DNA of 10,791 bases from Promethearchaeia archaeon (GTDB lineage: Archaea > Asgardarchaeota > Lokiarchaeia > Sigyniarchaeales > SOKP01). The translations under genes and the position numbers were made by a program. The notes beneath the pieces were generated by a model that was not told the DNA's origin, ran no database searches, and worked only from the letters and a program-made list of their open reading frames with translations. The first letter of the stretch is position 1, and each line of letters begins with the position of its first letter. Location: positions 1 through 10,791 of the forward strand of contig JAHQWX010000030.1 in assembly GCA_029856375.1 (NCBI GenBank), given 5' to 3'. This document shows positions 1 to 10,075 of the stretch, one piece after another.

Positions 1-345
1 CCATAGAGGAGATTCCACATTTTCAACCGCAGTTAAGGTGTTAATAAGGTTAAAATCCTGAAATACAAAACCGATTTTTTGCCTTCGAATACGACTTAAT
101 CTATCTTCGGTCGAGCGACTGATATTTTCGCCGTCAAATACGATCTTACCACTATCGGGCAAATCGAGTCCCGATAAAACGTTCAAAAGAGTACTTTTCC
201 CACAACCCGTTGGACCTTGTACGCAAACGAATTCGCCAGATTTTATATCAACGGTAATATCAACTAAAGCTCTGATGATTGCCCCTTCTCTTCTATATTC
301 TTTATTCACTTCGCTTGCACTAATCATAATATCTAAACTTGACAT
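1..345 (-). CDS. ABC transporter ATP-binding protein, LolD/MacB type (C-terminus outside window)
   Basis: This is the N-terminal 115 codons of an ABC ATPase that would power the FtsX-like permease encoded just upstream. The Walker A motif GPTGCGKST lies at residues 44-52 and the Q-loop glutamine at about residue 96 (FVFQDFNLI). The pattern around it (LSGLDLPDSGKI, then SRIRRQKIGFVFQDFNL) is typical of the LolD/MacB/FtsE branch, which serves lipoprotein, macrolide or peptide export and cell-division roles. The signature motif, Walker B and H-loop lie beyond the window edge, so activity cannot be judged. The ATG at 345-343 is preceded by a perfect AGGAGG that starts at the base after the permease stop codon, so the two genes are almost certainly co-transcribed and translated together. 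The substrate is unknown. Confidence 0.93.
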   Translation of the reverse strand, partial: MSSLDIMISASEVNKEYRREGAIIRALVDITVDIKSGEFVCVQGPTGCGKSTLLNVLSGLDLPDSGKIVFDGENISRSTEDRLSRIRRQKIGFVFQDFNLINTLTAVENVESPLW

Positions 346-360: not shown

Positions 361-903
361 TTACGTCCCCACCTTTTTTAAAGCGATAATAGGCCTTACC
401 CGCAACACTCTTCGATTCGCTAAAAGAATACCGATTAATTGAACGGAGACGAAGATGCCAAAAGTCAATAAAACGGCTGGCAAACTAATTAAGGGCAATT
501 GGCTTGATGGAACAGATGGATTAACTGCAGAGTAGAAGTACCCCAAAGCCGCTACAAAATGAAAGAGAACCTCGATAACTATAATAAATCCACTTATTGT
601 TGCGAACAGAATCTCGCCAATTATAATAGTTTTACAGTCTCTGTTTGTGTATCCTATGCATTTCAATGTCGCGATTTCGCGCCTTCTATAGTTTGTTATA
701 ACCCAGGCATAGAGGAGACTCAGGAATATTGAAATCCCCATAGCGATTAAAAAAGAAGTTACCGCTGTAGTCGTCTGAACAGATGAAATGTGTAAAGAAT
801 AGGATGACCAGAACAAGAGTGCAGTATACATCATTGTAAAAACGAAATACCTTTTTCTGCTTCTAAGAGCAAGGATAATCGCTTTTTTCCATAATCGTAA
901 CAT
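361..903 (-). CDS. Minimal FtsX-like ABC transporter permease, four membrane helices
   Basis: A 180-residue membrane protein with four predicted helices, roughly at residues 18-37, 45-68, 95-118 and 138-163. The cytosolic stretch after helix 2, with the RRREIATLKCIGYTNRD pattern, is the hallmark of FtsX/MacB-fold permeases, where this coupling region contacts the ATPase. Family members usually carry a large external domain between helices 1 and 2 and run to 300-650 residues. Here that loop is under ten residues, so the protein is a stripped-down transmembrane core that would probably work as a dimer or with another subunit. The C-terminal RRVLRVRPIIALKK matches the usual FtsX end. The ATPase gene follows with no gap beyond the ribosome binding site. 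The start is the ATG at 903. The substrate cannot be read from the sequence. Confidence 0.85.
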   Translation of the reverse strand: MLRLWKKAIILALRSRKRYFVFTMMYTALLFWSSYSLHISSVQTTTAVTSFLIAMGISIFLSLLYAWVITNYRRREIATLKCIGYTNRDCKTIIIGEILFATISGFIIVIEVLFHFVAALGYFYSAVNPSVPSSQLPLISLPAVLLTFGIFVSVQLIGILLANRRVLRVRPIIALKKVGT

Positions 904-1063
904 TTGATTATCACTGAATTTTTAATTTATTTTATTAATTAGTTCAAATATATTTTTAAACTTAATATATTATTATAAAAGCACGAAATATTTTATATAT
1001 TTAAGTAATTAAAAAACTAATTTAATTAAATTTAGAAAGTAATTACTCAATTCTCGATAAATC
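904..1063. promoter_or_regulatory. Divergent A+T-rich intergenic region between the ABC operon and the profilin-like gene
   Basis: These 160 bases are strongly A+T-rich and separate two divergently transcribed genes, so they should hold both promoters. A TATA-like TTTAATTA at 1021-1028 is placed about right for a short-leader transcript of the plus-strand gene (ATG at 1064). On the minus strand a TATA-like stretch lies near 949-960. The background is so A+T-rich that neither box is certain. No ORF or RNA structure is evident. Confidence 0.45.
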
Positions 1064-1450
1064 ATGTCGGAAGAGATTAATAGCATTATTAACGAGTTAT
1101 TTGATGTTGAGGCAACTGTGGGTGGCATTGCTCTCATCGGAAGTGATAATCAAATTAAATTTCAAACGGAAAATTGGGACCTTTCCGGCGATTTAGCATC
1201 GATTATTGAACTCATAGAGGCAGAAGGGGGAATTGGAAGGATTGTGCTTCAAGGTATAACATACATGGTCGTGGAAAACACACCAGAGAGAAAAATTGGG
1301 ACAAATATTAAGGGGCAAGGGCATTTAATAATAGCTCCTACGGGCGACAATAGCGCAGCTCTTGTTTGCTACATAATCCCTGAAGCAGGTCCGCGCGACG
1401 CTCTCTTTAATGTTCAAGAGGCTGCTCAAAAATTAAAGGGTAAAATATAA
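1064..1450 (+). CDS. Profilin-like actin-binding protein (Asgard profilin candidate)
   Basis: A soluble 128-residue protein matching the profilin fold in length and order of elements. There is an N-terminal helix (2-14), then strands (20-26, 30-35), a helix (41-53), and the characteristic block LQGITYMVVENTPERKIGTN (62-81), which resembles the profilin pattern G-x-x-(F/Y)-M-x-x-x-x-x-D-x-x-I-x-G. A GQGHLIIAPTG strand-turn (84-94), a hydrophobic strand (98-105) and a C-terminal helix (110-125) follow. Profilins bind monomeric actin and control filament assembly; Asgard profilins are known to act on actin. The aromatic residues that eukaryotic profilins use for polyproline (near the N-terminus and in the last helix) are absent, apart from F33 and W38, so proline-rich ligands are unlikely to be bound in the usual way. 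No Shine-Dalgarno is seen, so a short or absent leader is likely. The main alternative is a roadblock/LC7 protein, also common in Asgards. Confidence 0.75.
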   Translation: MSEEINSIINELFDVEATVGGIALIGSDNQIKFQTENWDLSGDLASIIELIEAEGGIGRIVLQGITYMVVENTPERKIGTNIKGQGHLIIAPTGDNSAALVCYIIPEAGPRDALFNVQEAAQKLKGKI

Positions 1451-1490: not shown

Positions 1491-2591
1491 TTAGAGTTTA
1501 TGAACGATTGGCCAGAAATTTTTCAATATATTTATCAATTCTGCTTTAACGCGAGATATAGTATTTTTCAATTCTGGATCTTCTGGAAGCGAGATTTTTT
1601 CTTCAAACGGTAACTCAACTTGATCCCCTAAAAGTGTCTGAATTATCGAATATGAACATATGGGTAAAGCGCTTTGGCTGTACCCCCCTTCAAGAACAAA
1701 CGAGAGTTTTCCATTACACAGCCTTTTTGCGAGATCTAATATGTTATGGGTAAATTGAATGTAGGCATTTGCAGTAAGCAAACAATTACCAATGGGATCC
1801 GTGAAATGTCCATCAAAACCACAAGCAACAACTATTAGCTCGGGTTTAAATTCTGAAAAAATTGGATCGACGATATCAAACAATTCCATAAAATATTTAT
1901 CGGTTGTTTTGGGTGGAATTGGAAAATTGATATTTTTTCCTAAACCTTCCCCTTCCCCAACTTCAAAAATAAAACCTAATTCTCCTTGATCGAAATCGTA
2001 TTCGTGAATTGAAAAATACAAGATATCGGGGTCTTCGTAGAAAAATTTTGCAATCCCGTCTCCGTAGTGATTATCAATGTCGACAATGGCAACTTTATTG
2101 ATCGCTTTCTTTACTTTTCTCAAGTACTGAATTGCTATCGCAATATTATTAAAGATACAAAGGCCAGAAGCAACATCTCTTAGAGCGTGATGGCCAGGTG
2201 GTCTAATAAACGCAAAAGATTGATTTACATCGTTGTTAATTACGCTTGACAAAGCGCTTATCGTTGCACCTACAGCTTTTTTCGCTAAATTATAGGTGTC
2301 TTTTGTGATAAAAACAGATTCACCCGCGTCTCCGGACCCAATATCAGAGAGATACTTTATTGACTGGATGTGATATTTCGAATGTACTAATTCTATAACA
2401 GAATCGTCAATATCAGTCAAAGGTAGTTGTTTTACTCGACCATCTTCAAAAAGATCAGTCTTGTTGAAGTAATCCATGATTCTTTTAATTCTTAAAGGAC
2501 TTTCAAACGATTCGAAATATGGTCTTGGGTAGGGAGGATCGTTGAGTACCTCAAAATCTTTGTCTGTGATTATTCCGACAGTTTCCTTCAA
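1491..2591 (-). CDS. Histone deacetylase family protein (zinc-dependent, arginase/deacetylase fold)
   Basis: A 366-residue member of the HDAC/AcuC/acetylpolyamine amidohydrolase superfamily, which removes acetyl groups from lysines or polyamines. The active site looks complete: the general-base pair H134-H135 in RPPGHHA, zinc ligands D173 and H175 in DIDNHYGDG and D260 in CGFDGHFTDP, and the transition-state tyrosine Y304 in LEGGYS. The GLCIFNNIA block (143-151) is also typical. A small oddity is Y176, where most relatives have a second histidine (DxHHGDG). No signal peptide or membrane segment is seen, so it is cytosolic. The start is probably the TTG at 2591; the next in-frame ATG (residue 39) would remove conserved N-terminal sequence such as the ESPLR pattern. 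Substrate options include archaeal histones, other acetylated proteins or acetylpolyamines. It converges with the profilin-like gene and is divergent from the membrane protein gene. Confidence 0.92.
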   Translation of the reverse strand: MKETVGIITDKDFEVLNDPPYPRPYFESFESPLRIKRIMDYFNKTDLFEDGRVKQLPLTDIDDSVIELVHSKYHIQSIKYLSDIGSGDAGESVFITKDTYNLAKKAVGATISALSSVINNDVNQSFAFIRPPGHHALRDVASGLCIFNNIAIAIQYLRKVKKAINKVAIVDIDNHYGDGIAKFFYEDPDILYFSIHEYDFDQGELGFIFEVGEGEGLGKNINFPIPPKTTDKYFMELFDIVDPIFSEFKPELIVVACGFDGHFTDPIGNCLLTANAYIQFTHNILDLAKRLCNGKLSFVLEGGYSQSALPICSYSIIQTLLGDQVELPFEEKISLPEDPELKNTISRVKAELINILKNFWPIVHKL

Positions 2592-2645: not shown

Positions 2646-2672
2646 AATTTATTTAATGAAGTGAAATTCAAA

Positions 2673-4925
2673 ATGGACGCAACTGAAATTCTGTTCCTAT
2701 TACTTTTTAACGGGCTCCCAGTTATTCTCTTAGCAATTCCAATTCCTATTTTATATAAAAAGACCATAGGAAAACTTTACCTTAGGATATATTTAGGGAT
2801 TTTAGTATTCTTTTTAGTTTATTGGATTTTACCCATTATTTTTCAATTGGATGTTCAACCAAAAGAATTAGCACAAACTACGGAAGGTCAAGAAGATATC
2901 CTTGCGGGAATCACATTTATTTTTGTTCACATGCTGTCGATAATTTCTTATTTCCTACAGTACCCATTTTTAACGCTATCTTTTATTTTCGTTATCGGCC
3001 CAGTTATATCTTTCCTGCTACTAAGAAGAAAGCTACGAAAAGAACCAGGCACTATGGAAGAGAAATTATCTGAAATTACTTACGAATTAAAAGCCAGTCC
3101 ATCCGAAATGATAAAGGAGGGATTAAAAAAATCAGGTTGGTCCGAGGAGAAAGAACTTTTTAAAAGTTTGGTTGTTCTTTTGCCAATTTCATTATATTTA
3201 TTATCTGTCTTTATAGATGTACTCGGTTTAGAGAGCTTTTCTTTAACAACTGGTACAACAGCTATTGGGTGGTTTATAGAAATCATGTTTATATATCTCG
3301 CAACTCTTTTATTTGGAATTCATTTGCTTTATTCAAGCAGAGTTTCATTTAAGGGTATTTTCGTTGGGGAACAATTAAAAGAAAACACTTTTAGGAGTCT
3401 ATATCAAGTTGGCACACCAATATCAATATTAAGTATTATTTTATTTCTTGCAAAACCTACAACGAATCCAATTGTGATAATCTATTTTTTTGCGTATTTC
3501 ATAATGGGATCAATAATTTTCATACTTTTCTTAAAAATAATTGAACCAATATCGATCCTATTATTAATAAAATTAATTGACTGGTGGAAATTTAAGAAGA
3601 AGAGATTAAAAGAAATAGATTGGAATAATTTTTATTACCCCATTATTTTTGGTTTTGCTGCAACCTTTATCGTAATTTTAGTATTATTTCTAGGAATGGG
3701 GGGATTGAATTATTTAATCGTACCTACAGATGCTATTCGAGATGCTTTAGTAGAAAAGGCTGCAATTACATACACAGACACTATATATTTGGAGGATGCG
3801 ATAAAATTAGACCTTTACAATGTAAATGGGTCTTTAATTTATATTGTATTGTGCGGAATGATTATGGCATACCTTTTTTCGAAGAGCTTACAGTACATTA
3901 AAAGAATTACTATGACATCTTTTCTTTTTTTGGGTATACTGGTCCCTCTAGCGGTCTTTTTTGAAATCACTAAAATGGCCCCTAATCCAATTCCTTTTGT
4001 ACTAGAAGAATATTGGATAACTGGCTCACCAGCTTATTATACCTTATTTAATCAAAATTTTTATACGATTAGAACTGCATTATTTACTACAACTTCAGCT
4101 GCAGAAGGAGGTGTCATCTTATTAGGAATAATAGCAGCCCCTTATATGTATACTAGGTATGTGTTAAACATCGTGATCTGGGGATTAATTTTTTACTATT
4201 TCAATAAGACATTTATTTCAAAAAATATCCCTAAGGAAGGTGATCTGATAGAAAAAATAGCGTTTTCACAAATGATCGAATTCCCAAAGTATGAAGATTA
4301 TCAGACGAATCGCTATCGATATTTAATCACAAAAAGCGAAGAGATAGAGTTGGAAACGGTAGAAAAGCGAGACGATGTAAAAAATTTACTCGACCAACTC
4401 AATGAGAACAAGTTTATCGAAGAATTAAAGTCAGACAATGTGGAGGAGTCTAAACGTTTCTATTATACCCTGAAATATTTATTCTACAAGGATATGATAT
4501 CTATTTGGATACCAGAATTCTCTTACGAATCCCAGAAACCCGAACTTAAAGGACTTTACATAATGTATTCCGATGGGAGGGATGTCTTTTCTCATAATTT
4601 CGAGGAGGAACAATATGTAGATCCCGCTTTAATTTCTGGGATGTTCTCAGCAATTACTTCTTTTATAAAAGAAGCAACGAAAAGTTCGGAGTTACTTCGC
4701 GTTATAGACCACGGGGATATAAAAATAATGCTCGAATATGGTAAGTGGGTTTTTGCTGCGTTATTCGTTAAGGGACAACAAACTCTAGAAAATAGAAGTC
4801 GATTACGAGAATTTATTGATTGGTTCGAAGAAAAACACGGCGAGCTTTTATTAGATTGGAACGGCGCAATGCATCCATTTAGAGGCGACGAGGATAATGT
4901 TAAGGAGCTTTTCAAAGAAGACTGA
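2673..4925 (+). CDS. Polytopic membrane protein with C-terminal longin/roadblock-like domain, function unknown
   Basis: A 750-residue protein I do not recognise as a named family. About eleven to twelve hydrophobic helices fill residues 1 to about 512, interrupted by a charged cytosolic loop (about 120-165) and a hydrophilic loop (about 350-385). A soluble tail follows. Its first part (about 525-610) is helical and charged and ends in LKYLFYKDMISIW, suggestive of a winged-helix-like element. Its last part (about 626-745) has a beta-strand pair (GLYIMYSDGRDVFS), helices (LISGMFSAITSFIKEA), a strand pair (IKIMLEYGKWVFAALFV) and a final helix. This is the order seen in longin/roadblock-type domains, which in Asgards often accompany small GTPases. 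The protein may be a membrane receptor or transporter with a GTPase- or partner-binding tail. The ATG at 2673 is chosen over an in-frame GTG at 2661 because of the upstream TATA box. It appears monocistronic. Confidence 0.75.
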   Translation: MDATEILFLLLFNGLPVILLAIPIPILYKKTIGKLYLRIYLGILVFFLVYWILPIIFQLDVQPKELAQTTEGQEDILAGITFIFVHMLSIISYFLQYPFLTLSFIFVIGPVISFLLLRRKLRKEPGTMEEKLSEITYELKASPSEMIKEGLKKSGWSEEKELFKSLVVLLPISLYLLSVFIDVLGLESFSLTTGTTAIGWFIEIMFIYLATLLFGIHLLYSSRVSFKGIFVGEQLKENTFRSLYQVGTPISILSIILFLAKPTTNPIVIIYFFAYFIMGSIIFILFLKIIEPISILLLIKLIDWWKFKKKRLKEIDWNNFYYPIIFGFAATFIVILVLFLGMGGLNYLIVPTDAIRDALVEKAAITYTDTIYLEDAIKLDLYNVNGSLIYIVLCGMIMAYLFSKSLQYIKRITMTSFLFLGILVPLAVFFEITKMAPNPIPFVLEEYWITGSPAYYTLFNQNFYTIRTALFTTTSAAEGGVILLGIIAAPYMYTRYVLNIVIWGLIFYYFNKTFISKNIPKEGDLIEKIAFSQMIEFPKYEDYQTNRYRYLITKSEEIELETVEKRDDVKNLLDQLNENKFIEELKSDNVEESKRFYYTLKYLFYKDMISIWIPEFSYESQKPELKGLYIMYSDGRDVFSHNFEEEQYVDPALISGMFSAITSFIKEATKSSELLRVIDHGDIKIMLEYGKWVFAALFVKGQQTLENRSRLREFIDWFEEKHGELLLDWNGAMHPFRGDEDNVKELFKED

Positions 4926-5482: not shown

Positions 5483-7786
5483 TTAATCGATCGTACTAAT
5501 GCGAAATGCTTGAATTAGTGAATAATAGGTATTCCTCAACCAACGAATAAAATGACTAATAGAATTTCGCACCCTCTTCCACTTAGACTTTACATAAAGT
5601 TCAATAGCGTTAGTGGATAATAATTGTTTGGATTTTTTATTGAATAATTCGGCTTTAATCTTTATCGTACCGTTCTTCACCGTTTCACCTATATTTAAAT
5701 TTAAAAGAAAACATAAACGACTTGATGAGGATTCAATCTTAATGCTTAGTTTCCTTTCGAAAAAGGGATTTCCGTTGAGTTCTCCTTTCAAGACTAGATT
5801 AACGTCGATATGATTGATTAGATCGTTTATAATGTGAATATAAATCGGTTTCCTCTGACCATGGCTTACGACCTCGTTCCAACTCATTCCAATAATAGGC
5901 CCCCAAAGAAACAATCCGGCGTCCAATCCACTAAAAATGATAGATCTGTAAGGTAAACGGATTTTAGTTAGCGAAAAACTACAAAGAACGGGAGAACACG
6001 CCTCCTTAACAGCATGATACGCTTTCTTTCTGAGGTTGAAGTAGTCAATTATGGACCAGGTAATGCTTGGCCAGGTGTCTTTAAACATAAAAAGCGCGAA
6101 CATGTGAGTTTTTCCCTTACACCTTCTAAAAGCTTCAATACTGAATTTAAGGTTATCTGCTTGATAGGCTTGGGTTTTTTCAATCATTTTTTTTAAGCCA
6201 TGATCAGGTGTTGCGTTAGACATGTGATAATTTAAAATATTCTGACTGTCGTGGTACTCCCACTTCCTATTAGGTGGCCAATTATTTTTAACATCCAAGT
6301 TCTCTTCGTTCCAGGTTGGAGAATTTATGCTCGGGAGGCTTTGAGGTCCAAATTCTGAGGGATACGGCGCTCCTGGACACAAAAGGTACCCATATTTCGT
6401 GCCAAAATACCAACCACAGAACGGATGACCAGAAATTGCAGATTCTGACCACACGAGACGACCGAAGAGGTCTTCAGAATCGACATGCTTCTTTAAGATT
6501 TTTGCCATCAAGTGGTTTTCTTCGTTCGAAGGCTCTGTCCAACAGGAAAAGATTATGATTGAAGGATGGTTGTGCAGCTGAATTGTCATTTCTTTTGATT
6601 GGTTTACAGCTGCATTAACCGATTCCCTGCTATATTCGTAGTTCCATAAAGTTGGGAAATCTTGTTGCAAGACAATCCCTGTTTCGTTGATGTAATTGTA
6701 AAATAGCGACTTCTCAACATGGTACGAAATTCTTAAAAAATTCAGGTTTGCCTCTTTAACATCGCTTACTGTTTTAGCGTAGGCTTCGTCGTCCATTTTA
6801 GAAAGCCATAAATTGCTAAAAAAGTTAGCACCTCTTAGATATATCTTCTCACCATTAAGATACCAACCGTCTTTTTTATACTCAGCAGACCTGATTCCGA
6901 AAGTGCCTTCCCACTTGTCTAATTTTTCTTCATGACTTTCAAATGTTAAATTCATTAAATAAAGATTAGGGGTTCCCAAATCCCATGTCCACCACAATTT
7001 TGGCTTTTCTATTTGAATACTTCTTTCAATAACAAAATCTCCTTGAATTAACACTTTAATTGGGATCGTAAAAAGCTGTTCTTTGCCTTTAAAATTCTTC
7101 GGTAAAATCTTAATATTTAACGATAATTCATCGGTATTCGTTTGGCTCTTATTAAAAACAGAAATAATCAATTGGACATTTGATTTTTTAGAGTATATAT
7201 CTTTCGAGACAATTTTAACATGATTAATGTACAATTTATTCGATATTTTTAGCGATACTGAGTCCCATATACCGCCAGAGCCTTTATCTTGTCCATATTT
7301 TTTCGATGTGCTCCCTGGTCTGCAATCCCAATGAGAAAACCCTCCTTTGAACTGCCTTTTGCGAGGAGCAAATGGTCCAGTCTTGTTAAAGCCCTCGTCG
7401 AACGGAGCATTGACTTGTAGAACAATCTCGTTTTCCATGGGATTATCAAAATCTAAATAATTTGTGATATCAAACAGAAAATGTCCGAAATACCCTTCGT
7501 GAAATCCCACATATTCTCCATTTACCCATATTTTCGCGTAATAATCGACGCCATTGAAGCAAATTCTTACGATTTTCCCTTTCCAGTTGGGATTTACATC
7601 TAATTGTCTTGCAAACCAAACGATCCCATTATAATCTAATTCTAAGCCAGTATACCAATTACAGGGTATCTGTACTTCTCCCCAATCGCTTTTATTGGAA
7701 TTTTTTTTCCAGATTCCCTTCTCTTCGCCTTCGGAATTTTCATCGATAAAATACTTCCATTTTCCGTCAAGCGAAATGTCTTTCAT
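5483..7786 (-). CDS. Glycoside hydrolase family 2 protein (beta-mannosidase / exo-beta-glucosaminidase-like)
   Basis: Residue numbers count from an upstream TTG at 7801. The order is a jelly-roll sugar-binding domain (about 10-190, ending GGIWDSVSL), an Ig-like domain (190-305), a TIM barrel (about 311-600) and a C-terminal beta domain (610-738). The acid/base is E423 in NHPSIIIFSCWTEPS and the nucleophile E483 in SEFGPQS. The FKDTWPSITWSIIDYF stretch (574-588) is typical of beta-mannosidase and exo-glucosaminidase relatives rather than LacZ. The usual Asn before the acid/base is T422, which may mean an altered sugar at C2. No signal peptide is seen, so it should act in the cytosol. The last 35 residues are rich in Lys, Arg, Trp and Ile and could bind membranes. 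The ATG at 7786 is chosen over the TTG at 7801, which lacks a ribosome site. It follows the reductase gene by 32 bases, so they form an operon. Confidence 0.88.
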   Translation of the reverse strand: MKDISLDGKWKYFIDENSEGEEKGIWKKNSNKSDWGEVQIPCNWYTGLELDYNGIVWFARQLDVNPNWKGKIVRICFNGVDYYAKIWVNGEYVGFHEGYFGHFLFDITNYLDFDNPMENEIVLQVNAPFDEGFNKTGPFAPRKRQFKGGFSHWDCRPGSTSKKYGQDKGSGGIWDSVSLKISNKLYINHVKIVSKDIYSKKSNVQLIISVFNKSQTNTDELSLNIKILPKNFKGKEQLFTIPIKVLIQGDFVIERSIQIEKPKLWWTWDLGTPNLYLMNLTFESHEEKLDKWEGTFGIRSAEYKKDGWYLNGEKIYLRGANFFSNLWLSKMDDEAYAKTVSDVKEANLNFLRISYHVEKSLFYNYINETGIVLQQDFPTLWNYEYSRESVNAAVNQSKEMTIQLHNHPSIIIFSCWTEPSNEENHLMAKILKKHVDSEDLFGRLVWSESAISGHPFCGWYFGTKYGYLLCPGAPYPSEFGPQSLPSINSPTWNEENLDVKNNWPPNRKWEYHDSQNILNYHMSNATPDHGLKKMIEKTQAYQADNLKFSIEAFRRCKGKTHMFALFMFKDTWPSITWSIIDYFNLRKKAYHAVKEACSPVLCSFSLTKIRLPYRSIIFSGLDAGLFLWGPIIGMSWNEVVSHGQRKPIYIHIINDLINHIDVNLVLKGELNGNPFFERKLSIKIESSSSRLCFLLNLNIGETVKNGTIKIKAELFNKKSKQLLSTNAIELYVKSKWKRVRNSISHFIRWLRNTYYSLIQAFRISTID

Positions 7787-7818
7787 GCTCTTGATTCTCA
7801 ATTTGAAAAATAACTAAG

Positions 7819-8670: not shown

Positions 8671-8794
8671 AGGTAATCACTAAATTATATTCAACTCAAC
8701 TCATTAAAATAGCTTTTTTTGAAATCTTTTACGCTCTTATTCGGCTCAAATCCATTTAAATAAATATAAATTGCATTATTCAATATTTTACTTA
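8671..8794. promoter_or_regulatory. Divergent promoter region between the reductase and DUF39-ferredoxin operons
   Basis: These 124 bases separate two operons read away from each other. The plus-strand TATA box is at 8755-8762. For the minus strand, the best candidate is a TATTTTAA-like stretch near 8703-8712 about 35 bases before the ATG at 8670, which is weak. No ribosome binding site is evident for either first gene, as expected for short-leader archaeal transcripts. Confidence 0.5.
8755..8762 (+). promoter_or_regulatory. TATA box for the DUF39-ferredoxin operon
   Basis: TTTAAATA is an exact match to the archaeal consensus TTTAWATA. It sits 40 bases before the ATG at 8795, which predicts a leader of about 10 bases. 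It also argues against the upstream in-frame TTG at 8771, which would lie before the transcript start. Confidence 0.7.
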
Positions 8795-10075
8795 ATGTCT
8801 AAAACTAGAACATTTGAAGAGATCAACAACAAAATCGCCAGTAAAAACGCTGTCGTAATGACAGTGCAAGAGTTCATTGAGAAAATTGCAGATGGCGAAA
8901 AGATCGAATTCGACGATGTTGATGTGATAACAACCGCAACAAAAGGATTAATGAGCGGGATCGCGGGAGTGTTCTCTTTTCGATTAGCAGAACCTAGAGT
9001 ACATAGAAAATTTAAAGCCGTTTCATTAAATGGGATTCCGGGTTATGTTGGCCCTTGTCCTAACGAATTCCTCGGAGTAATTGATTTAGTTTTATACGGT
9101 ACTGCACAAAGTGAAACTAGAAATAATTATGCTGGAGGCACATTATTTCGCGAGTTAGTTGAAGAAAAGCCTATAGAGATCGTTGCAAAAACAGATGACG
9201 GCGTTCAAATAGACAAAACAATAACAATAGACGATATGCAATTTGCACGATTAATGGGTACTCGCCAAGCCATTAGAAATTATAGTTCTATGATCAACAC
9301 TTCCACTGAATCCATTGACACAATTTTCTCTGCACTCCCATTCGCACCAAATACCAGTCAATTGACTTTCTCCGGATGTGGGGCGTTAAATCCGCTTCAA
9401 AACGACCCTCTCTTTGAGATCGCGGGGGTCGGTACTCCAGTTTTAGTAAATGGGAGCGTAGGACACATCATCGGGCCTGGTACTAGGAATAACATAGAGA
9501 AACCAAACTTGATGTGTATCGCTGATTTTAAAGGAATGAAACCAGAATACATGGGATCGTTTATGACTTCCTTCGGTTTAGAACCAATTTGCTCCATTGC
9601 TATGGCAATTCCTATTATTAACGAAGGTGTATTTAATAACATCGTAAGAGCAGATAAGGAGGTTAAATTACAAATTCTTGACTTGGTTGGAAGGGCAAAA
9701 ATTGGAGAAATAACCTATGGAGACGTCTGGAATAATAATTTCTTTATTAAATTCGATCCAAAAAAATGTAAAGCTCACGAGGATTGTCCGGTCGAAGCTG
9801 GATGTCCTACGAAAGCGTATGAAGTGGGAAAAGGTATTGATCGAACAAAATGTTTTAATTGCGGAGCGTGCTTAAGATTGTGCCTTGAAGGGTGTTTTAT
9901 GGGCGATTTAAAAGCGATCGATTATAATGGTATTGAAGTTCCCGTTGTTCTCCGCCAATCCGATCGATTTAACGCGATAAAGTTAGCTACAGAATTAAAA
10001 AATATGGTCATAAAAGGCGAATTTCCGATAAAAGAACGAATATCAAAACTCAGTTTTTACGAATTTGTGATATAA
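8795..10075 (+). CDS. DUF39-ferredoxin protein, methanogenesis marker 16 / L-aspartate semialdehyde sulfurtransferase group
   Basis: A 426-residue soluble protein. Residues 1 to about 315 are a DUF39 (homocysteine biosynthesis) domain, with family blocks VDVITTATKGLMSG (42-55), GPCPNEFLG (86-94), TFSGCGALNPLQNDP (191-205) and GVGTPVLVNG (211-220). Residues about 318-371 are a ferredoxin-like domain with eight Cys: C325, C331, C337, then C353, C356, C359, C363 and C367. In methanogens, DUF39 enzymes add sulfide to aspartate semialdehyde to make homocysteine, using persulfide cysteines and a partner ferredoxin. The fused form with the GPCPNE block matches what I recall of marker 16. C88 and C195 are candidate reactive cysteines. 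The ATG at 8795 is chosen over the TTG at 8771 because of the TATA box. The VOC and ThDP genes follow in one operon. Whether the substrate is aspartate semialdehyde or another aldehyde is unknown. Confidence 0.88.
   Translation: MSKTRTFEEINNKIASKNAVVMTVQEFIEKIADGEKIEFDDVDVITTATKGLMSGIAGVFSFRLAEPRVHRKFKAVSLNGIPGYVGPCPNEFLGVIDLVLYGTAQSETRNNYAGGTLFRELVEEKPIEIVAKTDDGVQIDKTITIDDMQFARLMGTRQAIRNYSSMINTSTESIDTIFSALPFAPNTSQLTFSGCGALNPLQNDPLFEIAGVGTPVLVNGSVGHIIGPGTRNNIEKPNLMCIADFKGMKPEYMGSFMTSFGLEPICSIAMAIPIINEGVFNNIVRADKEVKLQILDLVGRAKIGEITYGDVWNNNFFIKFDPKKCKAHEDCPVEAGCPTKAYEVGKGIDRTKCFNCGACLRLCLEGCFMGDLKAIDYNGIEVPVVLRQSDRFNAIKLATELKNMVIKGEFPIKERISKLSFYEFVI

Follow-up and report, generated by a model that had tools for sequence, protein, structure and literature searches.

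A probable lokiarchaeal profilin in a conserved gene neighbourhood with FtsX- and ABC-family genes

What does the short reading frame at the start of an Asgard archaeal contig encode, and do its neighbours say anything about how it works? We analysed a stretch of 10,791 nucleotides (hereafter the window; contig JAHQWX010000030.1 of assembly GCA_029856375.1) from a member of the Sigyniarchaeales within Lokiarchaeia. Its source genome comprises 2.54 Mb in 503 contigs and is 69.3% complete, the window being contig 435. The reading frame at 1064..1450 is very probably a lokiarchaeal profilin of the LokiProfilin-1/-2 type, one that most likely binds monomeric lokiactin. Asgard profilins bear on the origin of a regulated actin cytoskeleton before eukaryotes; the protein itself, an ordinary Lokiarchaeon profilin, adds little beyond LokiProfilin-1 and -2. 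One point is unexpected: the same membrane-transporter genes stand beside profilin in nearly all relatives examined, and this conserved neighbourhood is the part of the result most worth passing on.

The frame runs from an ATG at 1064 to a stop codon ending at 1450 and specifies 128 amino acids. It contains the motifs GITYMVV, IGTN and GQGHLIIAPTG as the original prediction had quoted them, and the C-terminal helix named there spans residues 110-123 of our predicted model. The frame is clearly coding because, compared with its orthologs in three congeneric genomes, it differs mostly at third codon positions (82-84 of 128 codons, with 32-35 at first and 18-19 at second positions). The gene is under purifying selection, with dN of 0.23-0.25 in these comparisons; dS is saturated and so without value. 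Since 267 of 271 candidate homologues match at E <= 0.01 and selection is purifying, the observation goes beyond chance.

Both sequence and predicted fold place the protein with Loki profilins, which bears out the earlier preference for profilin over roadblock/LC7. It matches the characterised Loki profilins across residues 1-125 of 128 (E 1.6e-35 and 5.3e-35). The comparison of a predicted structure with Asgard profilins, proposed in the original prediction as a check, yields a profilin fold with Loki profilins scoring highest, ahead of roadblock chains by ~11 Z units. LokiProfilin-1 (PDB 5yed, 5yee) and LokiProfilin-2 (PDB 5zzb), both solved in complex with actin, align over 128 residues at 52-55% identity and an rmsd of 1.1-1.2. 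The window copy differs from them in being five residues shorter between W38 and M68, where they have 36, in lacking one residue near residue 95, and in carrying A120 in place of Tyr. OdinProfilin (5zza) and a Thorarchaeota profilin (7pbh) share the fold (E 1e-11 and 3.2e-11) but are only 25-28% identical, and the latter, according to its structure title, has an extended N-terminus that the window profilin lacks. Identity to eukaryotic profilins falls to 10-20%.

Actin-monomer binding and slower polymerisation are described for Loki profilins in PMC8410842, and by kinship the window profilin most likely has both activities. It would bind monomeric lokiactin on the barbed-end face, slow nucleation and elongation, and thereby set the pool of polymerisable actin; control by acidic lipids would be more likely than recruitment through polyproline tracts. 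That it binds actin, inhibits polymerisation, responds to lipids and does not bind polyproline is inferred from relatives. The analysis itself shows a predicted profilin fold, kinship to Loki profilins crystallised in complex with actin, and purifying selection; it also shows that the genome encodes a eukaryotic-type actin (PF00022, E 2.8e-131). Among PDB entries this actin matches 'HC1 actin' best (3.8e-188), and eukaryotic actins follow from 7.2e-160. Gelsolin (PF00626) has no match in the genome, which does not show its absence because the control genomes were also silent and the genome is 69% complete.

The claim that the protein lacks the terminal aromatics of the polyproline pocket stands in part. 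Human profilin carries W3 and Y6 in its N-terminal helix; these have no aromatic counterpart in the window N helix apart from F13, and the C helix has A120. On the other hand, F115 and W38 are retained. The full set of pocket aromatics in the N- and C-terminal helices is thus not present. A lack of N-helix aromatics is a family trait: in an alignment of 60 rows that includes the window profilin, the columns aligned with residues 1-15 are free of F, W, Y and H in 54 rows, and the window profilin has F13 alone. W38 is conserved in 60 of 60 rows and probably corresponds to human profilin W31/W32.

The neighbourhood is laid out as follows.
1..345, minus strand: ABC ATPase, 115 amino acids, truncated by the window start; resembles LolD and FtsE, under both NCBIfam cut-offs
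361..903, minus strand: short FtsX-family permease, 180 amino acids, with three strong hydrophobic segments (PF02687, 37 bits, cut-off 25.5); divergent
904..1063: A+T-rich intergenic region between the divergent FtsX gene and profilin (alignment of window, G004 and G002)
1064..1450, plus strand: probable profilin, 128 amino acids, ortholog-like to LokiProfilin-1/-2 (reading frame, sequence match, fold, tree, codon comparison)
1491..2591, minus strand: histone-deacetylase-family (HDAC) protein, convergent neighbour (PF00850, 257.6 bits)
2661..4925, plus strand: multi-pass membrane protein, 754 amino acids, family unassigned, conserved in family loci
5483-7801, minus strand: glycoside hydrolase family 2 protein, 772 amino acids (library scan)
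8771-10075, plus strand: HcyBio protein (PF01837) whose C-terminal part is cysteine-rich and ferredoxin-like (library scan)

Of 56 other genomes examined in the order, 54 have the FtsX gene upstream of profilin, and both misses have <1 kb of contig upstream. Our family sample consisted of every other family genome whose profilin match was better than 1e-30, 45 in all; for the rest of the order, 11 of 14 genomes were used, with G061, G071 and G073 omitted for weak profilin matches. Among the 45 family loci, FtsX occurs in 44, ABC in 42, HDAC in 40 and the 754-residue protein in 31, the last a count in which some loci do not reach far enough. The 11 loci outside the family have FtsX and ABC in 10 and HDAC in 3; the miss is G072, with 142 bases upstream. 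Within the family, FtsX is missed in G030 (953 bases upstream) and ABC in G003, G030 and G036 (396, 953 and 447 bases). HDAC is missed in G006, G007, G008, G015 and G057, where G008 has room for 190 bases and G057 for none; each of these five genomes has its best HDAC match on a contig other than that of the examined profilin locus. Wider gaps separate profilin from FtsX in G016 (1.6 kb) and from HDAC in G054 (1.4 kb) and G018 (4.4 kb).

The arrangement varies in family f4 (four genomes; L041, L047, L048 and L050), where the FtsX-ABC pair is inverted onto profilin's strand and still upstream. The ABC gene lies 0.42-0.47 kb from profilin in three of these genomes and 2.0 kb in G067, whose pair is 2.0-2.4 kb away. 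With FtsX, ABC and profilin on one strand, the f4 genes possibly form one transcript.

The pair is absent from profilin loci of other kinds: 0 of 8 paralogous loci have it (that of G001 has a match to the 754-residue protein 4.4 kb away), and neither do any of the 7 distant loci. Four of the distant loci belong to other orders within the class and three to the remainder of the phylum, the contig of one, G075, giving just 937 bases upstream; neighbours were sought by tblastn alone, with the window proteins at E 1e-3. A midpoint-rooted tree of 44 rows has a 100/97 split: one side (31 rows) holds the FtsX-linked profilins together with 126-residue paralogs that have no FtsX neighbour, the other the 201-residue paralogs and the seven distant profilins. 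Joint absence of profilin and FtsX was considered as linkage evidence. Of 60 other family genomes, 15 have no profilin match better than 1e-30, and at E 0.001 FtsX matches occur in six of these and are missing from nine. We dropped this comparison, broken contigs being a likely cause; they are suspected because G001 and G050 give only incomplete HDAC matches.

A functional link between profilin and the ABC/FtsX pair is possible. Beyond binding actin, profilin could work with the ABC/FtsX unit, whose membrane complex or shared control region would link the supply of actin monomers to transport or membrane state. Retention across the order, absence from the paralogous and distant loci, and the f4 inversion that keeps the pair upstream all favour such coupling, as do the many genes that PMC9834061 reports as rearranged between two cultured Lokiarchaea. 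However, adjacency is not interaction, the pair lies well away from profilin in G067, and HDAC and the 754-residue membrane protein are also retained, so something else may account for conservation of the block. Nor was the arrangement found outside the order, and it is therefore not general for profilins. We consider such coupling unlikely. Quite unlikely is an old, order-wide two-part module in which an FtsE/FtsX-like ABC membrane complex controls actin-monomer supply, replacing the polyproline-based recruitment of eukaryotes. The conserved FtsX/ABC-profilin-HDAC block is a testable lead on any link that may exist between actin and the membrane in cells whose profilin does not use polyproline. 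No published account of this neighbourhood was found in the literature searched, most subscription papers being outside reach, and the ABC-ATPase/short-FtsX pair upstream of profilin may be unreported.

Several observations weigh against the assignment as an actin-binding Loki profilin. Position 120, Ala here, is Y or F in 54 of 60 alignment rows. Together with the W38-M68 segment of 31 residues, where 31 of 60 rows have 36, this could mean that the protein is a profilin by descent whose actin function was lost or changed in this genus. That is highly unlikely: the window profilin keeps each of the 23 columns that do not vary among the other 59 rows, 16 of 60 rows, its own included, share the 31-residue segment, and selection is purifying. 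The shorter loop may or may not be the Loki-loop named in PMC8410842.

The Pfam profilin model PF00235 and NCBIfam do not match the window profilin. This looks like limited reach of the model rather than non-membership, because relatives 71-73% identical (such as P0002 and P0003) carry precomputed PF00235 matches. The Z scores of roadblock chains reach into the range of the lower-scoring eukaryotic profilins, and among the best 120 relatives listed, 10 bear Roadblock, LC7 or MglB names and three are named profilin. An MglB-like roadblock/LC7 dimer regulating a small Ras-like GTPase, similar to profilin in common architecture only, is nevertheless exceedingly improbable and was rejected on sequence and fold, since no roadblock or MglB chain is among the sequence matches and their fold scores lie below those of Asgard profilins. 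The sole Pfam match, DUF7076 (E 0.092, 13.2 bits against a cut-off of 27), was disregarded.

The complete ABC copy in G004 likewise resembles LolD/FtsE, under both NCBIfam cut-offs. Within the intergenic region 904..1063, the stretch attttatatatttaag recurs unchanged in two congeneric genomes; it is possibly a promoter element. The 754-residue protein has no match in Pfam or NCBIfam; its soluble C-terminal part may resemble a roadblock/longin-type domain. The glycoside hydrolase has no match near profilin in the loci examined, and the five window genes beyond 4925 have one match in 71 loci, most of which extend <=6 kb downstream, so that only nearer genes were really tested.

Further profilins occur in these genomes. 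Contig L127 of G057 (6199 bases) has a second, partial profilin at one end, 69% identical over residues 72-126, and an HDAC match at the opposite end. The source genome encodes a second profilin (L033:2173-2778; G000:C469) of 201 amino acids, whose profilin domain has OdinProfilin as its best fold match (E 1e-10). Its conserved C-terminal extension of ~75 residues is predicted to form two helices (mean pLDDT 76, linker <50), and a Pfam search with the last 59 residues gave no match; the protein has 518 relatives at E <= 0.001. In the 126-residue paralogs of family genomes (L055, L074, L075, L076 and L077), Arg76 is replaced, by eye, with Ala or Gly in five of five cases (PEAIIGTN/EGIIGTN); this Arg is invariant in 60 of 60 alignment rows. 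These paralogs may bind actin differently.
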